From Sphingomonadales bacterium (GTDB taxonomy: Bacteria; Pseudomonadota; Alphaproteobacteria; Sphingomonadales; Sphingomonadaceae): a stretch of DNA of 64,000 nucleotides. The notes below the pieces were generated by a model, which saw nothing but the letters and a program-made list of their open reading frames with translations, made no database searches and was not told where the DNA came from. The position numbers and the translations under genes are program-made. Below, in pieces: positions 1,600 to 37,762 of this stretch; position 1 is the stretch's first letter; the number at the start of each line of letters is the position of its first letter. The stretch lies in contig JACXVD010000031.1 in assembly GCA_014763545.1 (NCBI GenBank), forward strand, positions 1 to 64,000, read 5' to 3'.

Positions 1600-3060
1600 A
1601 TGAGCACATTGCGCAAGATCCTCATCGCCCTCCTCGTCATCCTCGTGCTGCTGGCCGGGTTCGGCTGGTACATGACCAGGGGCCAGACGGCCGAACTGAC
1701 CATGGACCAGGTGAGCGGCACCGATCCCAAGCTGGCCGACCCCAGCCCCGAAAATTTCCCCACCGTGGGCATTGCCGATCCGGTCGGCTGGGGCGCGGAT
1801 CAGGTGCCCGCCGCAGCGCAGGGGCTGGCGGTGACCCGCTTTGCCGACGGGCTCGATCATCCGCGGGTGGTCTATACGCTGCCCAATGGCGATGTGCTGG
1901 TTGCGCTGACCAACCGCCCGCCGGCGAGCGATCCGGGCGGGATCACCGGCTGGTTCATGCGCACCTTCCTCGACAAGGCTGGCGCGGGCGACGCATCGCC
2001 CAACCAGATCGTGCTGCTGCGCGATGCCAATGGCGACGGCAAGGCCGATGTGAAGCAGGTGCTGCGCTCCGACCTCTCCTCGCCCTCGGGCATGGCCTGG
2101 CGCGATGGCACACTTTACGTAGCCGATCACGACGCGCTGCTCGCCTTCAAGTACCAGCCGGGCGAGATGGCAATTTCCGGCACGCCGGAAAAGCTGATGG
2201 ACCTGCCGCCTGCCGGCAACCACTGGATGCGCAACATCATCATCTCACCCGATGGCAAGCAGATCTATGTCGCGGTCGGTTCCTCGTCGAACATCGGCGA
2301 GAACGGGATGGACAAGGAGGAAGGGCGCGCCGCGATCTGGGAATACGACATCGCGAAGAAGCGACAGCGACTTTACGCCTCGGGCCTGCGCAATCCCAAT
2401 GGCCTTGCGTGGAGCCCGATGTCGGGCGAATTGTGGACCACGGTCAACGAACGCGACATGCTCGGCGGCGATCTGGTCCCCGACTACCTCACCAATGTCC
2501 CGGTCGGCGCGCAATATGGCTGGCCGTGGGTCTATTGGGGCGACACATTCGATCGCCGGGTCGAGGCGCCGGTTCCGGCCTATCTCACCGAATATGCCCG
2601 CAAGCCCGAATTCGCGCTCGGCCCGCATGTCGCGGCGCTGGGGCTGGTGTTCACCCAAGGCGGCAGCATGCTGGGCGAGAAGTTCTCGCATGGCGCGATC
2701 ATCGCGCGCCACGGTTCGTGGAATCGCAAGCCGCCGTCGGGCTACGACGTGGTCTATGTCGCCTTCGACGATCTCGGCAATCCGGTGGGCAAGCCGGTGC
2801 CGCTACTGACAGGCTTCCTCGAAGATGGCGGCAAGACCCATGGTCGGCCGACCTGGGTGGCCTGGGCTGGCGATGGCGCGCTGCTGGTCAGCGACGATAC
2901 CGCCGGGATCATTTGGCGGGTGGTCGCACCCGGTGCCGCCCCGGCCCAGGCGATGAAGCCGCTCACCGGCACCTCGCTGCCGCCGCGGACCGAACTCAAT
3001 GGCGATAGCCAGGCGGCATTCGGCCCGGAGGATTACGCGCGGGTCGAACCGGTGAACTGA
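1600..3060 (+). CDS. Membrane-anchored sorbosone/glucose-dehydrogenase-like beta-propeller protein
   Basis: 486 residues from ATG 1600. The open frame extends upstream, but this start places one hydrophobic anchor at residues 8-24 right at the N-terminus. The rest is a six-bladed propeller of the PQQ-dependent sugar dehydrogenase/L-sorbosone dehydrogenase family: FADGLDHPRVV, LPNGDVLVA, a calcium-site-like DANGDGKADV, a SGMAWRDGTLYVAD blade, GLRNPNGLAWSP and HGSWNRKPPSGYDV near the end. It probably oxidises a sugar or alcohol on the periplasmic side. The substrate, and whether PQQ is really used, cannot be told from sequence. Confidence 0.85.
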   Translation: MSTLRKILIALLVILVLLAGFGWYMTRGQTAELTMDQVSGTDPKLADPSPENFPTVGIADPVGWGADQVPAAAQGLAVTRFADGLDHPRVVYTLPNGDVLVALTNRPPASDPGGITGWFMRTFLDKAGAGDASPNQIVLLRDANGDGKADVKQVLRSDLSSPSGMAWRDGTLYVADHDALLAFKYQPGEMAISGTPEKLMDLPPAGNHWMRNIIISPDGKQIYVAVGSSSNIGENGMDKEEGRAAIWEYDIAKKRQRLYASGLRNPNGLAWSPMSGELWTTVNERDMLGGDLVPDYLTNVPVGAQYGWPWVYWGDTFDRRVEAPVPAYLTEYARKPEFALGPHVAALGLVFTQGGSMLGEKFSHGAIIARHGSWNRKPPSGYDVVYVAFDDLGNPVGKPVPLLTGFLEDGGKTHGRPTWVAWAGDGALLVSDDTAGIIWRVVAPGAAPAQAMKPLTGTSLPPRTELNGDSQAAFGPEDYARVEPVN

Positions 3061-10136: not shown

Positions 10137-10489
10137 GGTAGTGCGTGTCCTTCGCTCGGATTAGCTTTCGGCGGTGCTATGGCGCTTTGTTCGCTCGCGT
10201 CAAGCATCCGGTAGCACGCCTGTGCTTCGCGCGGCGGGCCGCGGCGCAGGGGCAGCGCCAGCAACTCCACGACTGAGACCCGCGCATGCGGCCCGTGACC
10301 GAGCGGCAGGGTTAGCACGTCGCCTGCGCCCACCGGCTGGCTGCCACGCGTCACCCGCACACCGTTGCGGCGGATATGGCCGGTTTCGGCCATGGTGGCA
10401 GCGAGTGAGCGACTCCGGGCGAAGCGCAGGTAGAACAGCAACCGGTCGAGCCGCATGGCTTCGGGTGCGCTCGCCTGCTCCGCTGTCAC
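10133..10489 (-). CDS. S4-domain RNA-binding protein (Hsp15/HslR-like)
   Basis: 118 residues if started at GTG 10489, which overlaps the helicase stop (GTGA); a start at ATG 10456 gives 107 residues and begins right at the S4 domain ([19 protein letters not shown]). The S4 domain spans about 12-70 ([18 protein letters not shown]). The Hsp15 family binds 50S subunits with stalled nascent chains. Its stop overlaps fdxA (ATGA), so translation is probably coupled through all three genes. The exact start is undecided. Confidence 0.8.
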
Positions 10490-13032
10490 CCCAGCAAATC
10501 CGCCAGCCCGGCAAAGGCGCTGCCTTCGCGTACCTGCGGCTTTTCGCTGCGTTCCTGCTTGCGCCGCGAGGGGCGCCATTCCCAGCTGTCGGGCGCGGCC
10601 GGGCCGAAAGCGCCTTCGGCCAGCTTGCGTGCGCGGTGGACGCGGAAACCCGCCGCACCGAGCAGGCGGTGGAAATTCTCCTCGGCCAGCCCGGTCGAAA
10701 TGCCCAGTGCCGGATCGATATGGAAACGCCGTTTGCCGCCGGCCTTGGCACGCGCTTCATGCGCGGCGCGGAGCAGCTTTTCCGCCATATCGACGCGAAT
10801 CGCCTGCTTGCCCGCCGGGCGATAGCCGCTCGGCAGCTTGCCTTCGCCCGCGATCACCGACCGCATCGCCTGCTCGAGCGGGCGCCGATCGATGCCCAGC
10901 GCATGGAGCAGCTGGCGCGGCGCAGGCTTGAGCAAGTCGCGCGCAAAAATGTCGAGCGCGCCGAAAGTCACCCCCAGCTTGCGCAGGAAGGGGCGCATTT
11001 CCTTGGGCAGATGTTCGATCCCGGCATTCTCGCGGGTTACATGGCCGTGCCCGGCGACCAGCGTCAGCAGCAGCGCGCGGGCCTGCGACCCGGCCTGCGG
11101 ATCGCGCGCTGCCGCCGCCAGCTTGCGCAGCGGATCGAGCGGGGCAAGCTGCGCCTCCAGCCATTCGCCCAGTTCGGCCAGGAAGGTGCGCCGCACCGCT
11201 TCGGGCAGCAGGTTGAGCTCACGCTCGGGCAGGATGCGCGGCGGCGCGCTGCCATCGCCGGCTTCCAGCGTGGCGAGGCGCCGCCCCTGCCAGGTCAGCG
11301 CGCCGCGTTCGATCGCGACGCCCGCGAAACACGCGTCGGCCAGGGCCTGCGCCCGCTCGGCGAGGATCGCCGGGAGCGCCTTCTCGCCTGCGGCCAGCAG
11401 CATCCGCCGGTCCTCGTGATTGGCCTGGTGATCCACGGTGAAATGGAAGCCGGTGATACGGCCGATGACCTCGTCCTCCACCCGCAGCATCCCGTCTTCG
11501 TCCAGTTTCACCGGCAACATGCCGGCATCGCTTCCCAGCGCCTTCATCAGGATCGCCGTCCTCCTGTTTACGAATCTCTCGGTCAGCCGCGCGTGCAGCG
11601 CGTCCGACAATTTCGCCTCGACGGCGCGGGCCCGCGCCGCCATCTCGTCGCGCGCCAGCACCCAATCGGGGCGCTGGCAGATATACGCCCAGCTGCGGAT
11701 CGCCGCGATCCGGCCCTGCAGCGTATCGATGCCGCCCTGCATATTGTCCAGTTCGGCGATCCGCGCAGCGGCATAATCCGCGCCGATGTATCCTTTCTGC
11801 AAGTCCTGCCACAGCCGCGCGACGAAGCGCGCGTGGGTTTCGGCGCCCTGCTGGCGGAAGTCGGGCAGGCTGCAGGCCTCCCAGAAGCGGCGCACCGCAC
11901 CCGCCCCGCGCACATCGTCCGGCAGCGGCTCGCCCGCCAGCCGCCGGAGCACGGCGAGGTCGATGGCCTCGGGCGCGGGGGCCAGCCCCTCTTCGCCCGG
12001 TGGCGCTTCGAGATCGGCGATCAATTGCGCGACACTGTCGAAACGCGGTTCCGCTTCGCGCCAGAACAGCTTGGTCAGCGGGGCGAAGCGATGTTCCTCG
12101 ATCGCGTAGATTTCTTCCTCGGCGAATTCGGGTGCGGGCTTGCCGTGTCCGCCCGCCCCGGCGAGCGTGCCGAAAGTGCCGTCGCGCTGGTGCCGCCCCG
12201 CCCGCCCGGCGATCTGCGCCATTTCGGCAGGGACCAGCCGACGCTTGCGGCGACCGTCGAATTTCTCCAGCGCGGCGAAGGCGACATGGTTGACGTCAAG
12301 ATTGAGCCCCATGCCGATCGCATCGGTGGCGACGATGTAATCGACCTCGCCATTCTGGAACAGCGCGACCTGCTTGTTGCGCGTTTCCGGGCTCAGCGCG
12401 CCCATCACCACCGCCGCGCCGCCACGAAAGCGGCGCAGCATTTCGGCCACGGCATAGACCTGCTCGGTCGAGAAGGCGACCACCGCGCTGCGTGGCGGCA
12501 GGCGCGACAATTTGCGCGGCCCGATATGGCTCAGCGTCGAAAAACGCGGGCGAGTGACGATCTCGGCCCGGGGCAGCAATTGCCGCACCAGCGGCTCCAG
12601 CGTCGCCGCGCCCAGCAACATCGTTTCCTCGCGCCCGCGCGCGTGCAACAGCCGGTCGGTGAAGATATGCCCACGCTCGGGATCGGCGGCGAGCTGCGCT
12701 TCGTCCAGCGCGACGAAGGCGAGCTTGCCCGCATCGCGCGGCATGGCTTCGGCGGTGCAGAGGAAATAGCGCGCATCCTTGGGCTCGATCCGCTCCTCGC
12801 CGGTGATCAGCGCGACCTGTTTCTCGCCCTTGATCGCCACCACCCGATCATACACTTCGCGCGCCAGCAGCCGCAGCGGGAAACCGATCGCGCCGGAGGA
12901 ATGGCCGCACATCCGCTCGATCGCGAGATGGGTCTTGCCGGTATTGGTGGGTCCGAGGACCGCCTTGATGCTGCCATCGGTCACGCCGGTGAATGTGGCA
13001 CCGGGCGGGGCAGGGTTCAATCGCCGATCCAC
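10486..13032 (-). CDS. SUV3/MgpS-like DEAD-type helicase
   Basis: 848 residues. Walker A GPTNTGKT (27-34), DEAQ box (110-113), FSTEQVYAVAEML and IVATDAIGMGLNLDV in the second RecA lobe, and the arginine-finger motif QIAGRAGRH. A long helical C-terminal region (about 350-848) includes conserved zinc-free accessory domains seen in bacterial SUV3-like proteins. It probably unwinds structured RNA. First gene of the operon with the S4 gene and fdxA. The Arg/Lys-rich end (RPSRRKQERSEK) may help RNA binding. Divergent from the M23 peptidase gene; the CtrA box lies between them. Confidence 0.9.
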   Translation of the reverse strand: MDRRLNPAPPGATFTGVTDGSIKAVLGPTNTGKTHLAIERMCGHSSGAIGFPLRLLAREVYDRVVAIKGEKQVALITGEERIEPKDARYFLCTAEAMPRDAGKLAFVALDEAQLAADPERGHIFTDRLLHARGREETMLLGAATLEPLVRQLLPRAEIVTRPRFSTLSHIGPRKLSRLPPRSAVVAFSTEQVYAVAEMLRRFRGGAAVVMGALSPETRNKQVALFQNGEVDYIVATDAIGMGLNLDVNHVAFAALEKFDGRRKRRLVPAEMAQIAGRAGRHQRDGTFGTLAGAGGHGKPAPEFAEEEIYAIEEHRFAPLTKLFWREAEPRFDSVAQLIADLEAPPGEEGLAPAPEAIDLAVLRRLAGEPLPDDVRGAGAVRRFWEACSLPDFRQQGAETHARFVARLWQDLQKGYIGADYAAARIAELDNMQGGIDTLQGRIAAIRSWAYICQRPDWVLARDEMAARARAVEAKLSDALHARLTERFVNRRTAILMKALGSDAGMLPVKLDEDGMLRVEDEVIGRITGFHFTVDHQANHEDRRMLLAAGEKALPAILAERAQALADACFAGVAIERGALTWQGRRLATLEAGDGSAPPRILPERELNLLPEAVRRTFLAELGEWLEAQLAPLDPLRKLAAAARDPQAGSQARALLLTLVAGHGHVTRENAGIEHLPKEMRPFLRKLGVTFGALDIFARDLLKPAPRQLLHALGIDRRPLEQAMRSVIAGEGKLPSGYRPAGKQAIRVDMAEKLLRAAHEARAKAGGKRRFHIDPALGISTGLAEENFHRLLGAAGFRVHRARKLAEGAFGPAAPDSWEWRPSRRKQERSEKPQVREGSAFAGLADLLG

Positions 13033-13075
13033 AGGCCAAACGGCTGGCCGCGCGGGGGACTCGGATCACCGCAGA

Positions 13076-13091
13076 TTAAGCCGATCTTAAC
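13076..13091 (+). promoter_or_regulatory. Perfect CtrA box (TTAA-N7-TTAAC)
   Basis: TTAA (13076-13079), seven bases, then TTAAC (13087-13091): the exact full CtrA recognition sequence of alphaproteobacteria. It lies about 90 bases upstream of the TTG start of the M23 peptidase and 44 bases upstream of the helicase start on the other strand. It is the only perfect site I found in the window. Confidence 0.7.
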
Positions 13092-13179
13092 TTCAATCGG
13101 GCAGGGATTTCCGCCAAGGGAACCGCTCGGGTCGGGCTGCTGCGCATGGATCGCGCCGCGCCCCTGGAAGGAGGGCGCG

Positions 13180-15862
<2,683 letters not shown>

Positions 15863-19251: not shown

Positions 19252-19519
19252 GCGCGACTACCCCGCTGCTACCGCGATCCGTGCGCTCGCCGATGGCGAA
19301 GGCCGCCTGGCCCTGCGGGTGACACCGGGCGCAAGGGTCGAAGGGGTGGAGCTCGCGGGCGGCGTCGTGGCGGTGAAAGTCCGCGCAAAGCCCAAGGACG
19401 GCGAAGCGAACGAGGCGGTGCTGGCCATGCTGGCCGATGCGCTGGATGTGCCGACGTCACGGCTTCGCATGTTGCGCGGCGCAACCGGGCGCGACAAGCT
19501 GGTGCAGATAGTCGACTAG
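19238..19519 (+). CDS. DUF167 (YggU) family protein
   Basis: 93 residues from ATG 19238, inside the end of the preceding gene. Conserved core RVTPGARVEG, VKVRAKPKDGEANEAVLAMLA, then LRMLRGATGRDKLVQI, the standard YggU fold. Conserved but of unknown function. Last gene of the hemB-side plus-strand run; convergent with the SulP gene 21 bases away. Confidence 0.9.
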   Translation: MARPRRDYPAATAIRALADGEGRLALRVTPGARVEGVELAGGVVAVKVRAKPKDGEANEAVLAMLADALDVPTSRLRMLRGATGRDKLVQIVD

Positions 19520-27088: not shown

Positions 27089-27292
27089 TCATGAGGTCGG
27101 TTTCCCGAACAGGGCATCGGCGGCGGCGCGATGTGCCGCCGCCTTCGACATATGGGATTCGATCCGCGAAATTTCATCCCTCAGCAGCGCGATGCGTTCT
27201 GCCAGCTCGTCCTGCGAATAGGGGGAGAGGTCCTCCTTCGCGAGGAGGCTCGCGGCGTCACCGCGGCGACGCGGGCGATCGTCTTCGTCCAT
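27089..27292 (-). CDS. DUF1192 family small protein
   Basis: 67 residues from ATG 27292 (MDEDDRPRRRG). Conserved LSPYSQDELAERIALLRDEISRIE and AHRAAADALF are the marks of this short helical alphaproteobacterial family. The frame is open 93 bases further upstream, but the family begins with acidic residues as here. Function unknown. Divergent from the quinone oxidoreductase gene. Confidence 0.85.
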   Translation of the reverse strand: MDEDDRPRRRGDAASLLAKEDLSPYSQDELAERIALLRDEISRIESHMSKAAAHRAAADALFGKPTS

Positions 27293-32254: not shown

Positions 32255-32692
32255 TCAATTCGCAACAATCAGCTTGGGTTCGCCATCGCTGCCGACCGGC
32301 GCGGCAGCCTTGGCCGGAATGCGGTGGGCGAAGCGGCCTTCGACCTCAGCCCCCTGTTCGATGGTCAGCGCATCGTAATGCACATCGCCTTCGATCCGCG
32401 CAGTCTTGAGCACGACCAGCTCGCGCGCGGTGATCGAACCGACCACCTTGCCGGCCAGTCGCGCGCTTTCGGCGGTGATCGCACCGTGGATCTCGCTCGC
32501 TTCGCCCTGCACCAGCGAGGAACAGGCCAGATCGCCCTCGATCTTGCCGTCGACATGGAGGTCGACCGAGGCGGAAATGTCGCCCTTGATCGCGACGTCG
32601 GCGCCGATCACCGAGAAGGTCGAGCCACTAGCCATGGGTCGCGGTCTCGCGGTCGCGCTGGCCTGGGGCGGCGCGGGCTTCTTCGAGAACAT
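32255..32692 (-). CDS. Bactofilin (polymer-forming cytoskeletal protein)
   Basis: 145 residues from ATG 32692, with GGAG upstream. Disordered N-terminus, then the right-handed beta-helix bactofilin core (about 24-120: FSVIGADVAIKGDISASVDLHVDGKIEGDL, VVGSITARELVVL, RIEGDVHYDALTIEQGAEVEG). Bactofilins form membrane-bound filaments that position cell-wall enzymes. The gene begins 65 bases inside the end of the M23 peptidase gene, the classic bactofilin-peptidase arrangement. Confidence 0.92.
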   Translation of the reverse strand: MFSKKPAPPQASATARPRPMASGSTFSVIGADVAIKGDISASVDLHVDGKIEGDLACSSLVQGEASEIHGAITAESARLAGKVVGSITARELVVLKTARIEGDVHYDALTIEQGAEVEGRFAHRIPAKAAAPVGSDGEPKLIVAN

Positions 32693-33800
32693 GGGGGGCT
32701 TTCTCCAGGAACAGGCGCGGGTTCACCGCGCGATCGTTGATGCGCACTTCGAAGTGGAGGTGCGGGCCAGTCGAGCGGCCGGTGCTGCCGATAGCGCCGA
32801 TCACGTCGCCCGCATCGACCTTCTGCCCCACCCGGGCAGCGAAGCGCGACATATGCGCGTAACGGGTCATCAGGCCGTTGCCGTGGCTGATTTCCACCAC
32901 ATTGCCGTAACCCGACCGCTGGCCGACGAAGGAGACGGTGCCGCGCGCAGCAGCATAGATCGGGGCGCCGATCGGGCCGCGGAAATCCAGCCCGCTGTGC
33001 ATCGCCGGATGGCCGGTGAAGGGATCGCGGCGGATGCCGTAGCTCGACGTGACCATTTCGACGCGCGCGGGCAGGTACTGCGGCACGGCTTCCAGCCCGC
33101 GTTCCAGCGCATCCATCCGCGCAACACTGAGGCCGAGGCGTTCGAAGCGCGGATCGATCTGGCCGTTGGGCCCGGTGGTCAGCGCCTCGAAGGGGCCGCC
33201 CATTGCGGCGGTATTGGCCTTGCCGACGATGGCGTCGGGGTTGAGGCCGAGCTTGCGCAGCGCATTGGCGGCGCGGGCGGCGCGCCGGTCGGCATAGCGG
33301 GTCAGCCGTTCGACGAAGGCGAGCTGGCGGGCTTCCATGCGAACCAGCTTGCCAGCTTCGGGCATCACCGCGCTGACCTTGTCAACCGCCTTGGTCGATT
33401 CGGTCGAGGAATCGGAGACGTTCTCTTCCGCCTTGATGTCGTCGGGCAGGCTGGCGACGGTATCTTCGATGAATTTCTGGCGCCGTTCGAGATCGGCAGC
33501 GACCGAGGAAATATCCTTGCGATAGGCGTCGACGCGCTCTTCCGACTTGGCCACGCGGGCTTCGCGTTCGAGCAGCGACGAGCGATCGGCCTGCGCGCGA
33601 TACTGGCTCCACGCCATACCGCCCATGCTGATGCCCCAGGCGAGCAGCGCGGCGAGCGCAATGGTCGCGGCGACGATCTGGACGCGCGAGGAAATCTTGA
33701 TGAAGCGGACCTGACCTTGCGAGCGCATGAAGAACTCGCGATCAGGGAACCATTCGCGCAGCCGCTGCGACAGCGCGCCGGTGTTACCAATTTTCGACAA
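32628..33800 (-). CDS. M23 (LytM) peptidoglycan endopeptidase of the bactofilin pair
   Basis: 390 residues from TTG 33800, with GAGGGG five bases upstream; ATG 33728 is a shorter alternative. One membrane segment (about 40-60, AATIALAALLAWGISMGGM), a coiled-coil region (about 70-135), and a LytM domain with the complete zinc set: HSGLDFRG, YAHMSRF and HLHFE. It would trim peptidoglycan cross-links at a site set by the bactofilin. The last 65 bases overlap the bactofilin gene. Confidence 0.88.
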   Translation of the reverse strand: MSKIGNTGALSQRLREWFPDREFFMRSQGQVRFIKISSRVQIVAATIALAALLAWGISMGGMAWSQYRAQADRSSLLEREARVAKSEERVDAYRKDISSVAADLERRQKFIEDTVASLPDDIKAEENVSDSSTESTKAVDKVSAVMPEAGKLVRMEARQLAFVERLTRYADRRAARAANALRKLGLNPDAIVGKANTAAMGGPFEALTTGPNGQIDPRFERLGLSVARMDALERGLEAVPQYLPARVEMVTSSYGIRRDPFTGHPAMHSGLDFRGPIGAPIYAAARGTVSFVGQRSGYGNVVEISHGNGLMTRYAHMSRFAARVGQKVDAGDVIGAIGSTGRSTGPHLHFEVRINDRAVNPRLFLEKAPHVLEEARAAPGQRDRETATHG

Positions 33801-34020: not shown

Positions 34021-34993
34021 ATGGACAATGCGCTCACACAGGAAACCGGCGATGTCGCCGCGCTGGTCGCAACGCTGGCCAAGGCCGGGCGCACAGCGCA
34101 GCGCGAGCTTCTACGAAAGCCGCCCCAACGTCACCGCCGATGCCGCCGCCCTGTGCGTGCGCTCGGGCAATGCGGCGCTGCTGCGCGGGGGCAGCGAGGC
34201 GGTGCTTTCCAACCATGCGATCCATGCCGCGATGGCCCGCGGGCTGGTGCGCGGCGGGCTGCCTGAAGCGGCGGTGCAACTGCTCCCCACGCAAGATCGG
34301 GCGGCAGTCGGCGCGATGCTGGCGGCGGCAGGGCTGATCGACATGATCGTGCCGCGCGGCGGCAAGAGCCTGGTCGCGCGGGTGCAGGCCGATGCCCGGG
34401 TACCGGTGCTCGCCCATCTCGACGGCATCTGCCACAGCTATATCCATTCTTCCGCCGATCCCGAGATGGCCCGCGCCATCGCGCTCAACGCCAAGATGCG
34501 GCGTACCGGGGTTTGTGGGGCGATGGAGACGCTGCTGCTCGACAGCGGCTTCCCGGCATCGGGCGACGTGATCGAGGCGCTGCTCGATGCGGGGTGCGAA
34601 TTGCGCGGCGACGGGCGGGCACAGGCGCTCGATCCGCGCATCGGCAATGCCGGGTGCGAGGATTGGGACACGGAATATCTCGACGCGATCCTCGCGGTGG
34701 CGGTGGTCGACGGGCTCGACGCCGCGCTCGACCATATCGCGCGCCACAGTTCGGGCCACACCGATGCGATCGTGGCGCAGGATGCGGATGTGCAGGAACG
34801 CTTCCTGGCCGAAGTGGATTCCGCCATCGTCATGGCCAACGCCTCCAGCCAGTTCGCCGATGGCGGCGAATTCGGGCTGGGTGCGGAAATCGGCATCGCG
34901 ACAGGCAGATTACATGCGCGGGGCCCGGTCGCACTCGAGGGGCTGACTACCTATAAATGGCAGGTGCGCGGCACCGGACAGACCCGCCCATAG
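34021..34993 (+). pseudogene. proA: Decayed glutamate-5-semialdehyde dehydrogenase (internal deletion plus frameshift)
   Basis: From ATG 34021 one frame reads a normal ProA N-terminus ([20 protein letters not shown]). At about 34105 homology jumps by roughly 95-100 residues to [16 protein letters not shown] in the next frame, which then continues to a normal ProA C-terminus at 34993 ([27 protein letters not shown]). The catalytic Cys segment [14 protein letters not shown] is intact, but much of the NADPH-binding part is missing and the frames do not match. A full enzyme is about 420 residues. Its position before nadD-rsfS-rlmH is the ancestral proA location. Either a real loss (needs another proA or proline uptake) or an assembly error. 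Confidence 0.8.
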
Positions 34994-35048: not shown

Positions 35049-36092
35049 ATGAAATACAATCGCCTCGGCAACACCGGCCTGTTCGTTTCCGAACTGTGCC
35101 TCGGCACCATGACCTTCGGCGGCGAGGGCATGTGGACTGCCATCGGCGAACTCAAGCAGGACCAGGCCGGCGCACTGGTGCGGCATGCGTTCGATGCCGG
35201 GATCAATTTCTTCGACACGGCCAATGTCTATTCGGAAGGCCAGTCGGAAGAGATCACCGGCCGGGCGCTGAAAGATCTCGGCGTCTCGCGCGACGAATAT
35301 GTGCTGGCGACCAAGGCGCTCGGCCCGATGGGCGACGGGATCAACCAGCGCGGCGGATCGGCCTATCACGTGCTGCACCAGATCGACGCCAGCCTGGCCC
35401 GGCTCGGGCTCGACCATGTCGATCTCTACCAGATCCACGGCTGGGATTCGGCTACTCCGATCGAGGAAACGCTGCGCGCGCTGGAGGATATCGTGCGTTC
35501 GGGCCGCGCCCGCTATATCGGCGTGTCGAACTGGGCGGCGTGGCAGATCATGAAGGCGCTGGGGATTTCGCAGCGGCTCGGCTTGTCCAGCTTCGTCTCG
35601 TTGCAGGCCTATTACTCGGTCGCCGGGCGCGGTCTCGAGCGCGACGTGCTGCCGATGCTCGAAAGCGAAGGGCTGGGGCTGATGGTGTGGAGCCCGCTGG
35701 CGGGCGGGTTCCTGTCGGGCAAATATACCCGTGCAGGCGATGCTGCCGACGGGCGCCGCGCCAGTTTCGACTTCCCGCCGATCGACAAGGACCGCGCCTA
35801 TGATGCGGTCGATGTGATGCACGACATCGCCGCCGCGAAGGGCTGCACCGTGCCGCAGGTCGCGCTCGCCTGGCTGCTGGCCAAGCCGGCGGTGACATCG
35901 GTGATCGTCGGGGCCAAGCGGACCGACCAGCTGGAGGACAATCTGGGTGCGGTGGATATCGCCCTGAGCGCGGAGGAAATCGCCCAGCTCGATGGCTGCT
36001 GCCCGCTGCCCAGCGAATATCCCGGCTGGATGCTCGAACGGCAGGGCGCCTATCGCCGCGGCGTGCGCGCGGGCGCGACCGAGGAGCAATAG
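35049..36092 (+). CDS. Aldo/keto reductase
   Basis: 347 residues from ATG 35049, with a very good AAGGA site. TIM-barrel reductase: SELCLGTMTFGG, then catalytic Asp and Tyr in FFDTANVYSEGQSEE, Lys in VLATKALGPMG and His in YQIHGWD. NADPH-binding end VTSVIVGAKRTDQLEDNL. The substrate is unknown (AKR11/12-type). It sits between decayed proA and nadD, interrupting a block that is normally contiguous. Confidence 0.9.
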   Translation: MKYNRLGNTGLFVSELCLGTMTFGGEGMWTAIGELKQDQAGALVRHAFDAGINFFDTANVYSEGQSEEITGRALKDLGVSRDEYVLATKALGPMGDGINQRGGSAYHVLHQIDASLARLGLDHVDLYQIHGWDSATPIEETLRALEDIVRSGRARYIGVSNWAAWQIMKALGISQRLGLSSFVSLQAYYSVAGRGLERDVLPMLESEGLGLMVWSPLAGGFLSGKYTRAGDAADGRRASFDFPPIDKDRAYDAVDVMHDIAAAKGCTVPQVALAWLLAKPAVTSVIVGAKRTDQLEDNLGAVDIALSAEEIAQLDGCCPLPSEYPGWMLERQGAYRRGVRAGATEEQ

Positions 36093-36098
36093 GCGCCT

Positions 36099-36758
36099 AT
36101 GTATCCGCGGCGCACCGGCTTGCTGGGGGGCAGTTTCAACCCCGCACATGGCGGGCACCGCCGGATCAGCCTGTTCGCGCGCGATGCGCTGGCGCTGGAC
36201 GAGGTGTGGTGGCTGGTCTCGCCCGGCAATCCGCTCAAGCCGCGTGCCGGGATGGCCCCGCTCGCCGCCCGGCTGGCGTCGGCGCAGGCGCAGGCCCGGC
36301 GGGCACCGATCCGCGCCACCGCGATCGAGCGCGAGCTGGGCACGCGCTATACCGTCGATACGCTGCGCAAGCTCGTGCGGCGCTATCCCGGCAGGCAGTT
36401 CGTGTGGCTGATGGGGGCGGATAATCTCGCCCAGTTCGACCGGTGGAAGGACTGGCGCGATATCGCGCGATTGATGCCGATTGCGGTGATCGCCAGGCCG
36501 GGCTATGATGGTGCTGCCTTCGCGAGCCCCGCGATGGCCTGGCTCAGGCGCTATCGGGTGCCCGCCGCCAGCTTACGTAGCAAGGGCAAATGGAGCGCAC
36601 CGGCGCTGGTGTTATTGCGTTTCGATCCCGATTCCCGTTCGGCCACGGCCCTGCGCCGCGCCGATCCGGATTGGGCGTCACGCCATTCCGGCGCTTCTCC
36701 ACGGGACATGGTGACGCATCGGCTGGTTGCACCGGGGGAGGACCCGCGGGCGCAATGA
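36099..36758 (+). CDS. nadD: Nicotinate-nucleotide adenylyltransferase
   Basis: 219 residues. N-terminal nucleotidyltransferase motif GGSFNPAHGGHRRIS, then WLVSPGNPLKPRAGM, VWLMGADNLAQFDRW and a C-terminal SRSATALRR (ISTxxxR-type motif). Converts nicotinate mononucleotide to deamido-NAD in NAD synthesis. Follows the aldo/keto reductase by 6 bases and precedes rsfS, the conserved order in proteobacteria. Confidence 0.95.
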   Translation: MYPRRTGLLGGSFNPAHGGHRRISLFARDALALDEVWWLVSPGNPLKPRAGMAPLAARLASAQAQARRAPIRATAIERELGTRYTVDTLRKLVRRYPGRQFVWLMGADNLAQFDRWKDWRDIARLMPIAVIARPGYDGAAFASPAMAWLRRYRVPAASLRSKGKWSAPALVLLRFDPDSRSATALRRADPDWASRHSGASPRDMVTHRLVAPGEDPRAQ

Positions 36759-36815: not shown

Positions 36816-37244
36816 ATGACACAGGCGCAGATCGTGCCGGTTTCGGCCGGCAACCAGGCAACAGCAGCGGGCGCGATGCCCACGGTTGAAGCCGAACCCG
36901 GATCGCTGCTCGCGCTGGTCCTCGGCCAGCTCGAAGACGACCAGGCCCAGGAAGTCGTGGTGGTTCCGCTCGAAGGCAAATCGAGCATTGCCGACCACAT
37001 GGTGATCGCCTCCGGGCGCTCGACCCGCCAGGTCGCGTCCATCGCCCAGAAACTCGCCGAAAAGGTCAAGCAGGACGGGTTCGGCCCGGTCCGGCTCGAA
37101 GGCCTGCCGGCGGCCGACTGGGTGCTGATCGACGCGGGCGACGTGGTCGTCCACCTGTTCCGCCCGGAAGTGCGCAGCTTCTACAACCTCGAACGCATGT
37201 GGGCGATCGGGGATGCACCGGCCGTGGCCGGGGGCCACGCGTAA
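36816..37244 (+). CDS. rsfS: Ribosome silencing factor RsfS
   Basis: 142 residues. The Iojap/RsfS core is at about 30-130: ALVLGQLEDDQAQEVVVVPL, IADHMVIASGRSTRQVASIA, ADWVLIDAGDVVVHLFRPEVRSFYNLERMW. It binds ribosomal protein L14 and blocks subunit joining in starvation. The first ~25 residues are an extension beyond the usual start, so a later start is possible. The expected place between nadD and rlmH supports the call. Confidence 0.95.
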   Translation: MTQAQIVPVSAGNQATAAGAMPTVEAEPGSLLALVLGQLEDDQAQEVVVVPLEGKSSIADHMVIASGRSTRQVASIAQKLAEKVKQDGFGPVRLEGLPAADWVLIDAGDVVVHLFRPEVRSFYNLERMWAIGDAPAVAGGHA

Positions 37245-37339: not shown

Positions 37340-37762
37340 ATGCTGCTCCACGTCATCGCCCGCGGTAAGATCGGCCGCTCGCCGGAGGCGGAGCTGGTTG
37401 CACGCTATGAAAAGCGGCTGACCTGGCCGTTCAAGCTCACCGAACTGCCCGACAGCGGCGGGAAAATGCCCGAACCGCAGCCGCAATCGCGCACCGTGCT
37501 GCTCGACGAGAAGGGCAAGGATCTTTCGTCCGAACAATTCGCCGAAGCGCTCGGCCGCTGGCGCGACGAAGGGGTGCGCGAGGTGCGCTTCCTGATCGGC
37601 GCGGCGGATGGCCACAGCGATGCCGAACGGGCCGAGGCCGACCTGCTGGTCGCCTATGGCAAGGCCACCTGGCCGCACCTGCTGGCTCGCGCCATGCTGA
37701 TGGAACAGCTTTACCGGGCAACGGCAATCCTTGCCGGGCATCCTTATCATCGGGCAGGGTGA
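37340..37762 (+). CDS. rlmH: 23S rRNA (pseudouridine1915-N3)-methyltransferase RlmH
   Basis: 140 residues, SPOUT fold. LLHVIARGKIGRSPEAELVARYEKRL at the start, VLLDEKGKDLSSEQFAEAL, RFLIGAADGHSD (SAM-binding knot) and HLLARAMLMEQLYRA at the end. Methylates helix 69 pseudouridine of 23S rRNA. Its TGA overlaps the GTG start of the EnvC-like gene. Confidence 0.95.
   Translation: MLLHVIARGKIGRSPEAELVARYEKRLTWPFKLTELPDSGGKMPEPQPQSRTVLLDEKGKDLSSEQFAEALGRWRDEGVREVRFLIGAADGHSDAERAEADLLVAYGKATWPHLLARAMLMEQLYRATAILAGHPYHRAG

Follow-up and report, generated by a model that had tools for sequence, protein, structure and literature searches.

A two-piece, frame-shifted proA in a draft Sphingomonadales genome: probable recent deletion with predicted proline auxotrophy, or assembly error

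The systems closest to the locus described here are intact γ-glutamyl phosphate reductases (ProA; NCBIfam TIGR00407), pseudogenes that carry a single lesion or derive from assembly, and natural cases, in the same family and order, in which the proline pathway has been lost. With the ProA structures 4ghk (145-443) and 1o20 (133-423), the C-terminal part of the present gene aligns at near full length, and the Cys-containing motif is retained together with 83 of 83 strongly conserved columns; the difference from ProA is that approximately 101 residues before YESRPN are absent and that the remainder is read in another frame than the N-terminus. According to the accessible part of PMC11017572, assembly accounts for many of the putative pseudogenes in public genomes, and low coverage matters in this respect. 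The present gene resembles the single-lesion or assembly-derived pseudogenes treated in that part of the paper in having one lesion, an otherwise undegraded sequence, and intact pathway partners, although the lesions discussed there are short indels and internal stops, and the present one, a 305-bp deletion, is larger. With natural pathway loss it shares a predicted absence of ProA function, whereas in those cases there is no proA match at E ≤ 1e-20, and 7 of the 8 genomes without proA in a sample of 58 relatives also lack proB; the present genome keeps proB, proC, and a truncated proA. Literature searches on proline auxotrophy in Sphingomonadales, on proA pseudogenes, and on proA in Erythrobacter found no papers, and in the accessible part of PMC10665431 the word “proline” occurs only in the reference list.

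The window, i.e., the whole stretch of 64,000 nucleotides analyzed (C56:1-64000), belongs to a 3.07-Mb draft genome in 123 contigs with 97.55% completeness and 2.75% estimated contamination. As judged by the ProA remnant, the closest named records among the matches listed are Altererythrobacter, Novosphingobium, and other Sphingomonadales. At 34021-34993, a single proA gene is present as two pieces, an N-terminus in frame 1 and a C-terminal part in frame 2; this observation is confirmed, and its components are the following:

34021..34109, plus strand: N-terminal remnant of proA in frame 1, approximately 30 codons, ending within a Leu codon; from the relatives’ N-terminus profile and the sequence
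34109..34110, plus strand: deletion junction, lacking 305 nt that 30 of 30 close relatives have, with a change of frame; inferred microhomology of at most 1 bp
34110..34993, plus strand: C-terminal remnant of proA in frame 2, approximately 294 codons and a stop, without internal stops; from TIGR00407 and the conserved columns
34514..34516, plus strand: retained Cys codon of the GVCGAMETL motif; from the motif position and the sequence

The C-terminal part matches positions 110-398 of the 398-position TIGR00407 profile at 34109-34957 with 303.9 bits, which is under the curated cut-off of 317.45 bits; the gene thus falls short of a full-length match, and it does not form a single continuous reading frame, the N- and C-terminal parts lying in different frames. 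The Cys motif of ProA is nevertheless found, with GVCGAMETL at residue 134 of the remnant, and we take its Cys to be the catalytic Cys of ProA. The N-terminal part was detected at 34021-34109 with a profile of the N-terminal sequences of 30 close relatives; when the whole window was searched in six frames, it gave E = 1.1e-8, against E = 0.48 for the next best frame. An earlier note on this DNA had recognized both ends of ProA in different frames, and the two profile matches bear it out.

The extent of the loss was determined from the spacing of two landmarks, the Leu of an AQRxL-like stretch and the Tyr of YESRPN, which are exactly 102 residues apart in 30 of the 30 closest intact relatives (the loci at least 76% identical to the remnant, out of 107 intact; the script accepted spacings of 86-124). 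Between the same landmarks, the window has 2 bases versus 307 in the relatives; therefore, 305 nt (approximately 101.7 codons) are missing, and because this number is not a multiple of three, the frame is shifted. The lost part corresponds approximately to residues 37-138 of the 431-residue protein of a same-genus genome, i.e., to its first third. The earlier note had described a frameshift and the loss of approximately 95-100 internal residues from the central part, with a join at about 34105; the internal loss and the frameshift stand, while the size is corrected by the spacing in all 30 relatives, the missing stretch lies in the first third and not in the centre, and the join is best placed at 34109/34110. 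With the relatives standing in for the ancestor, all 30 comparisons give an inferred microhomology of 0 bp on the left side of the junction, and on the right side 23 of them give 0 bp and 7 give 1 bp. No repeat spanning the junction was found in the window, and a repeat-driven deletion was rejected on this ground and on that of the near lack of bases shared between the two ends, as judged by comparison with the relatives; since the microhomology is at most 1 bp, a simple repeat collapse does not explain the junction.

We judge it somewhat better than an even chance that a single, very recent internal deletion in proA has made this organism a probable proline auxotroph. One recent 305-bp deletion with blunt or near-blunt ends would inactivate proA by removing approximately 101 codons within its first third, presumably a part of the cofactor-binding domain of the enzyme superfamily, and by throwing the remainder out of frame; no single frame of the assembled sequence holds the whole enzyme. 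Cells with this sequence would be unable to reduce γ-glutamyl phosphate and would rely on proline from outside, for which a PutP-type symporter offers a possible route of import. We infer a deletion in living cells, a loss of enzyme activity, and auxotrophy from the sequence. A local assembly error, by which 305 bp of a proA that is intact in the cell would have been lost via a chimeric fragment, gap closing, or a scaffold join, has a substantial probability, short of even. The 123 contigs and the estimated contamination of the draft speak for such an error, as does the origin of many putative pseudogenes in assembly (PMC11017572, accessible part), whereas the ends offer no repeat to collapse, as judged with the relatives in place of the ancestor. 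In either case, the locus looks ordinary, i.e., like a well-known gene that carries a young deletion or was misassembled, and not like a new kind of biology.

The 110 relatives’ loci with a ProA match comprised 80 found with the C-terminal part only, 20 best-scoring full-length rows, and 10 picked by hand, and the last 30 are biased to intact genes because they were chosen from high-scoring or full-length rows. Of the 110 loci, 107 have an open frame of 110 codons or more upstream of the junction point, and the other three run into a contig end; among the 80 loci not selected for intactness, 77 are open and three (L061, L079, and L089) lie at contig ends. The lesion is thus absent from the relatives, as expected of a pseudogene, and the 22-base string at the junction occurs in 3 of 131 loci, all three of which come from the window’s own genome. 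The earlier note had held that a conserved short form in close relatives would speak against a lesion, and no examined relative shares the short form. The only same-genus genome sampled (G001, 77% complete) carries an intact proA of 431 residues, which counts in favor of an assembly error. Its DNA is 76% identical to the window on the M23 peptidase side, 79% on the nadD side, and 80% over the proA remnant; with both sides alignable, the remnant occupies a position orthologous to an intact copy.

The remnant shows no decay. Compared with the same-genus gene, its dN is 0.119 and its dS is 0.906 (dN/dS of approximately 0.13), and its dN to three outgroups, 0.146-0.179, is inside the range of nine intact genes, 0.133-0.202; dS in these comparisons is 0.7-2.3, and the values are hence rough. 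The remnant differs at 0 of 83 columns whose conservation across 108 relatives is 98% or higher (two of the 110 were dropped, as their match is short of the first residues), and in a leave-one-out control, the 108 relatives themselves differ at 0 columns in 77 cases, 1 in 23, 2 in 7, and 4 in 1. Relaxed selection after inactivation is not seen in the dN/dS to the same-genus gene or in the 83 columns, and decay of the remnant was rejected on the same two measures. A remnant without decay implies either a very young lesion or an artefact, in accordance with the earlier note, which had called the C-terminal part undegraded and pointed to a recent event or an assembly error.

The surroundings of proA comprise the following genes:

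32631..33800, minus strand: M23 peptidase gene, divergent from proA (Pfam PF01551); alignable in the same-genus genome
35049..36092, plus strand: aldo/keto reductase gene between proA and nadD (Pfam PF00248, positions 1-289 of 291)
36099..36758, plus strand: nadD-like gene with a cytidylyltransferase-like domain (Pfam PF01467)
36876..37244, plus strand: rsfS (Pfam PF02410)
37340..37762, plus strand: rlmH, with a SPOUT methyltransferase domain (Pfam PF02590)

The earlier description of proA in its conserved place by nadD-rsfS-rlmH is correct as to the neighbourhood, with the amendment that the aldo/keto reductase gene (35049-36092) intervenes before nadD. This gene separates proA from nadD in the window; in G001, nadD-matching DNA lies directly after proA. 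Gene calling yielded 63 frames in the window, of which 58 other proteins were scanned by Pfam, with the small frames 19346-19519 and 27089-27292 omitted and with nadD and the aldo/keto reductase scanned separately, together with the proA frames. By eye, no comparable gene break was seen among the 58 proteins, apart from 6 without a Pfam family at E ≤ 1e-5 and 1609-3060 with only a partial, weak match, which cannot be judged; the lack of a comparable break among the scanned proteins argues against an assembly error. One of the 6, the called frame 13093-14448 on the minus strand, was rejected as wrong, a plus-strand frame reading by eye as M23-peptidase-like. An open frame of 1542 codons on the plus strand (10174-14802) lies antisense to a helicase gene and extends into this M23-peptidase-like sequence, again by eye; such antisense open frames are usual in GC-rich DNA. 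No tRNA was found when the window was scanned, which has no bearing on proA.

A profile search of the 123-contig assembly found no second proA. The sole other proA match (31.5 bits), an open frame of 534 codons on contig C88, was rejected as an aldehyde-dehydrogenase-like gene, named by eye. Elsewhere in the assembly the lost stretch was not found either, a 165-residue same-genus query matching only the retained end (next E = 0.15), and its absence from the other contigs is evidence against an assembly error. Because no other proA was found, the cells are predicted to be unable to reduce γ-glutamyl phosphate and to need imported proline. The partner genes are in place: proB is intact with 377 codons after an ObgE-like frame (ObgE by eye) and is the one proB over the cut-off in the genome, and proC is full length with 189.9 bits, slightly below its cut-off of 196.75. 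Intact proB and proC, together with the undecayed rest of proA, weigh against a real deletion, as they are also expected of an assembly error. A proline dehydrogenase domain in a frame of 1086 codons and a PutP-type symporter over its cut-off are both present, which makes proline uptake plausible. A TGA within the symporter match was followed up, and a broken PutP was rejected: the frame and the match end at the same base, 2958 of L132, and the stop is thus the gene’s own. Two bypasses were also rejected, namely ornithine cyclodeaminase (best match of 20.7 bits, below the cut-off of 24) and ornithine aminotransferase (best match of 252 bits, below the cut-off of 378.4), the latter match being presumably an arginine-pathway aminotransferase. 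The sequence as assembled predicts that proline synthesis is lost and that uptake is possible. The earlier note had anticipated that proline would have to be made with another gene copy or supplied from outside; neither a second proA nor the lost piece was found in the assembly, which does encode the PutP-type symporter, and the genome search for a second proA and for proB that the note had proposed gave no second proA and an intact proB. In five genomes of the family, a second proB over the cut-off was observed, divergent from proA at approximately 0.3-1.2 kb:

G003, C1:2091859-2092932: second proB
G005, C8:407518-408594: second proB
G007, C4:122133-123209: second proB
G017, C7:21812-22888: second proB
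G027, C1:2074020-2075099: second proB

Across 58 relatives sampled (G001-G058), eight are without a proA over the cut-off (G018, G019, G020, G042, G046, G051, G053, and G058), and seven of these eight are also without a proB over the cut-off, the exception being G019; missing proA alone is therefore unusual, with the reservation that G019 and G058 are 85% complete and that G046 has a proB fragment at a contig end. In G024, proA is present and proB is absent over the cut-off. Since a loss of proA with proB kept occurs otherwise only in the 85% complete G019 among these 58, this pattern adds to the case for an assembly error. In a wider sample of 199 family genomes, drawn evenly and including the row of the window’s own genome, 186 have a proA match at E ≤ 1e-20 and 183 are over the cut-off; among the 187 with a completeness of at least 90% and a contamination of no more than 5%, 176 have a proA match. 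Among the matches listed, the window’s genome alone combines a completeness of at least 90% with a best E weaker than 1e-110, and the other listed rows with a best E weaker than this (G106, G182, G200, and G213) are 66-88% complete. All listed members of g20, g75, and g98 are among the 13 of 199 genomes that have no proA match at E ≤ 1e-20. These eight listed members, i.e., G020 and G129 (g20), G078, G153, and G209 (g75), and G101, G168, and G220 (g98), are all 99% complete with genomes of 2.2-2.8 Mb, which suggests a lineage-wide loss of the whole gene. Furthermore, G008 carries proA in two abutting pieces (C1:1677102-1679406; profile positions 1-52 and 53-398) and proB in two pieces; in this single-contig genome, 86% complete with 7% contamination, the split genes may reflect base-level error.

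That the lineage stands at the first step of proline-pathway loss, with proA just deleted and with proB, proC, and uptake intact, is a tentative reading, which we regard as rather unlikely. A mixed population is improbable: the deletion would be one allele among co-sampled strains, kept by the assembler, with the other alleles intact, and although this is a general possibility for a draft genome and the intact pathway partners fit it, a second version of the locus was not found in the assembly. Finally, we give next to no credence to a short form that would be functional or repurposed and under selection, for although the 294-codon C-terminal frame is open and keeps 83 of 83 strongly conserved columns, the junction string (3 of 131 loci) is confined to the window’s own genome, among the matches listed every other family genome of at least 90% completeness has a best E no weaker than 1e-110, approximately a quarter of the protein is lost, and undecayed sequence is equally expected of a very young lesion.

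If the deletion is not real, the locus would be a reminder that auxotrophy calls in draft genomes from one broken gene need read-level support. If the single recent deletion in proA is real, the species would be expected to be auxotrophic for proline, with a cause of very recent origin, and would provide a starting-point case for the evolution of amino-acid dependency in this family, some genera of which show no proA. Were the lineage also at the first step of pathway loss, it would indicate that proA can go first, at the start of a dependency on outside proline.
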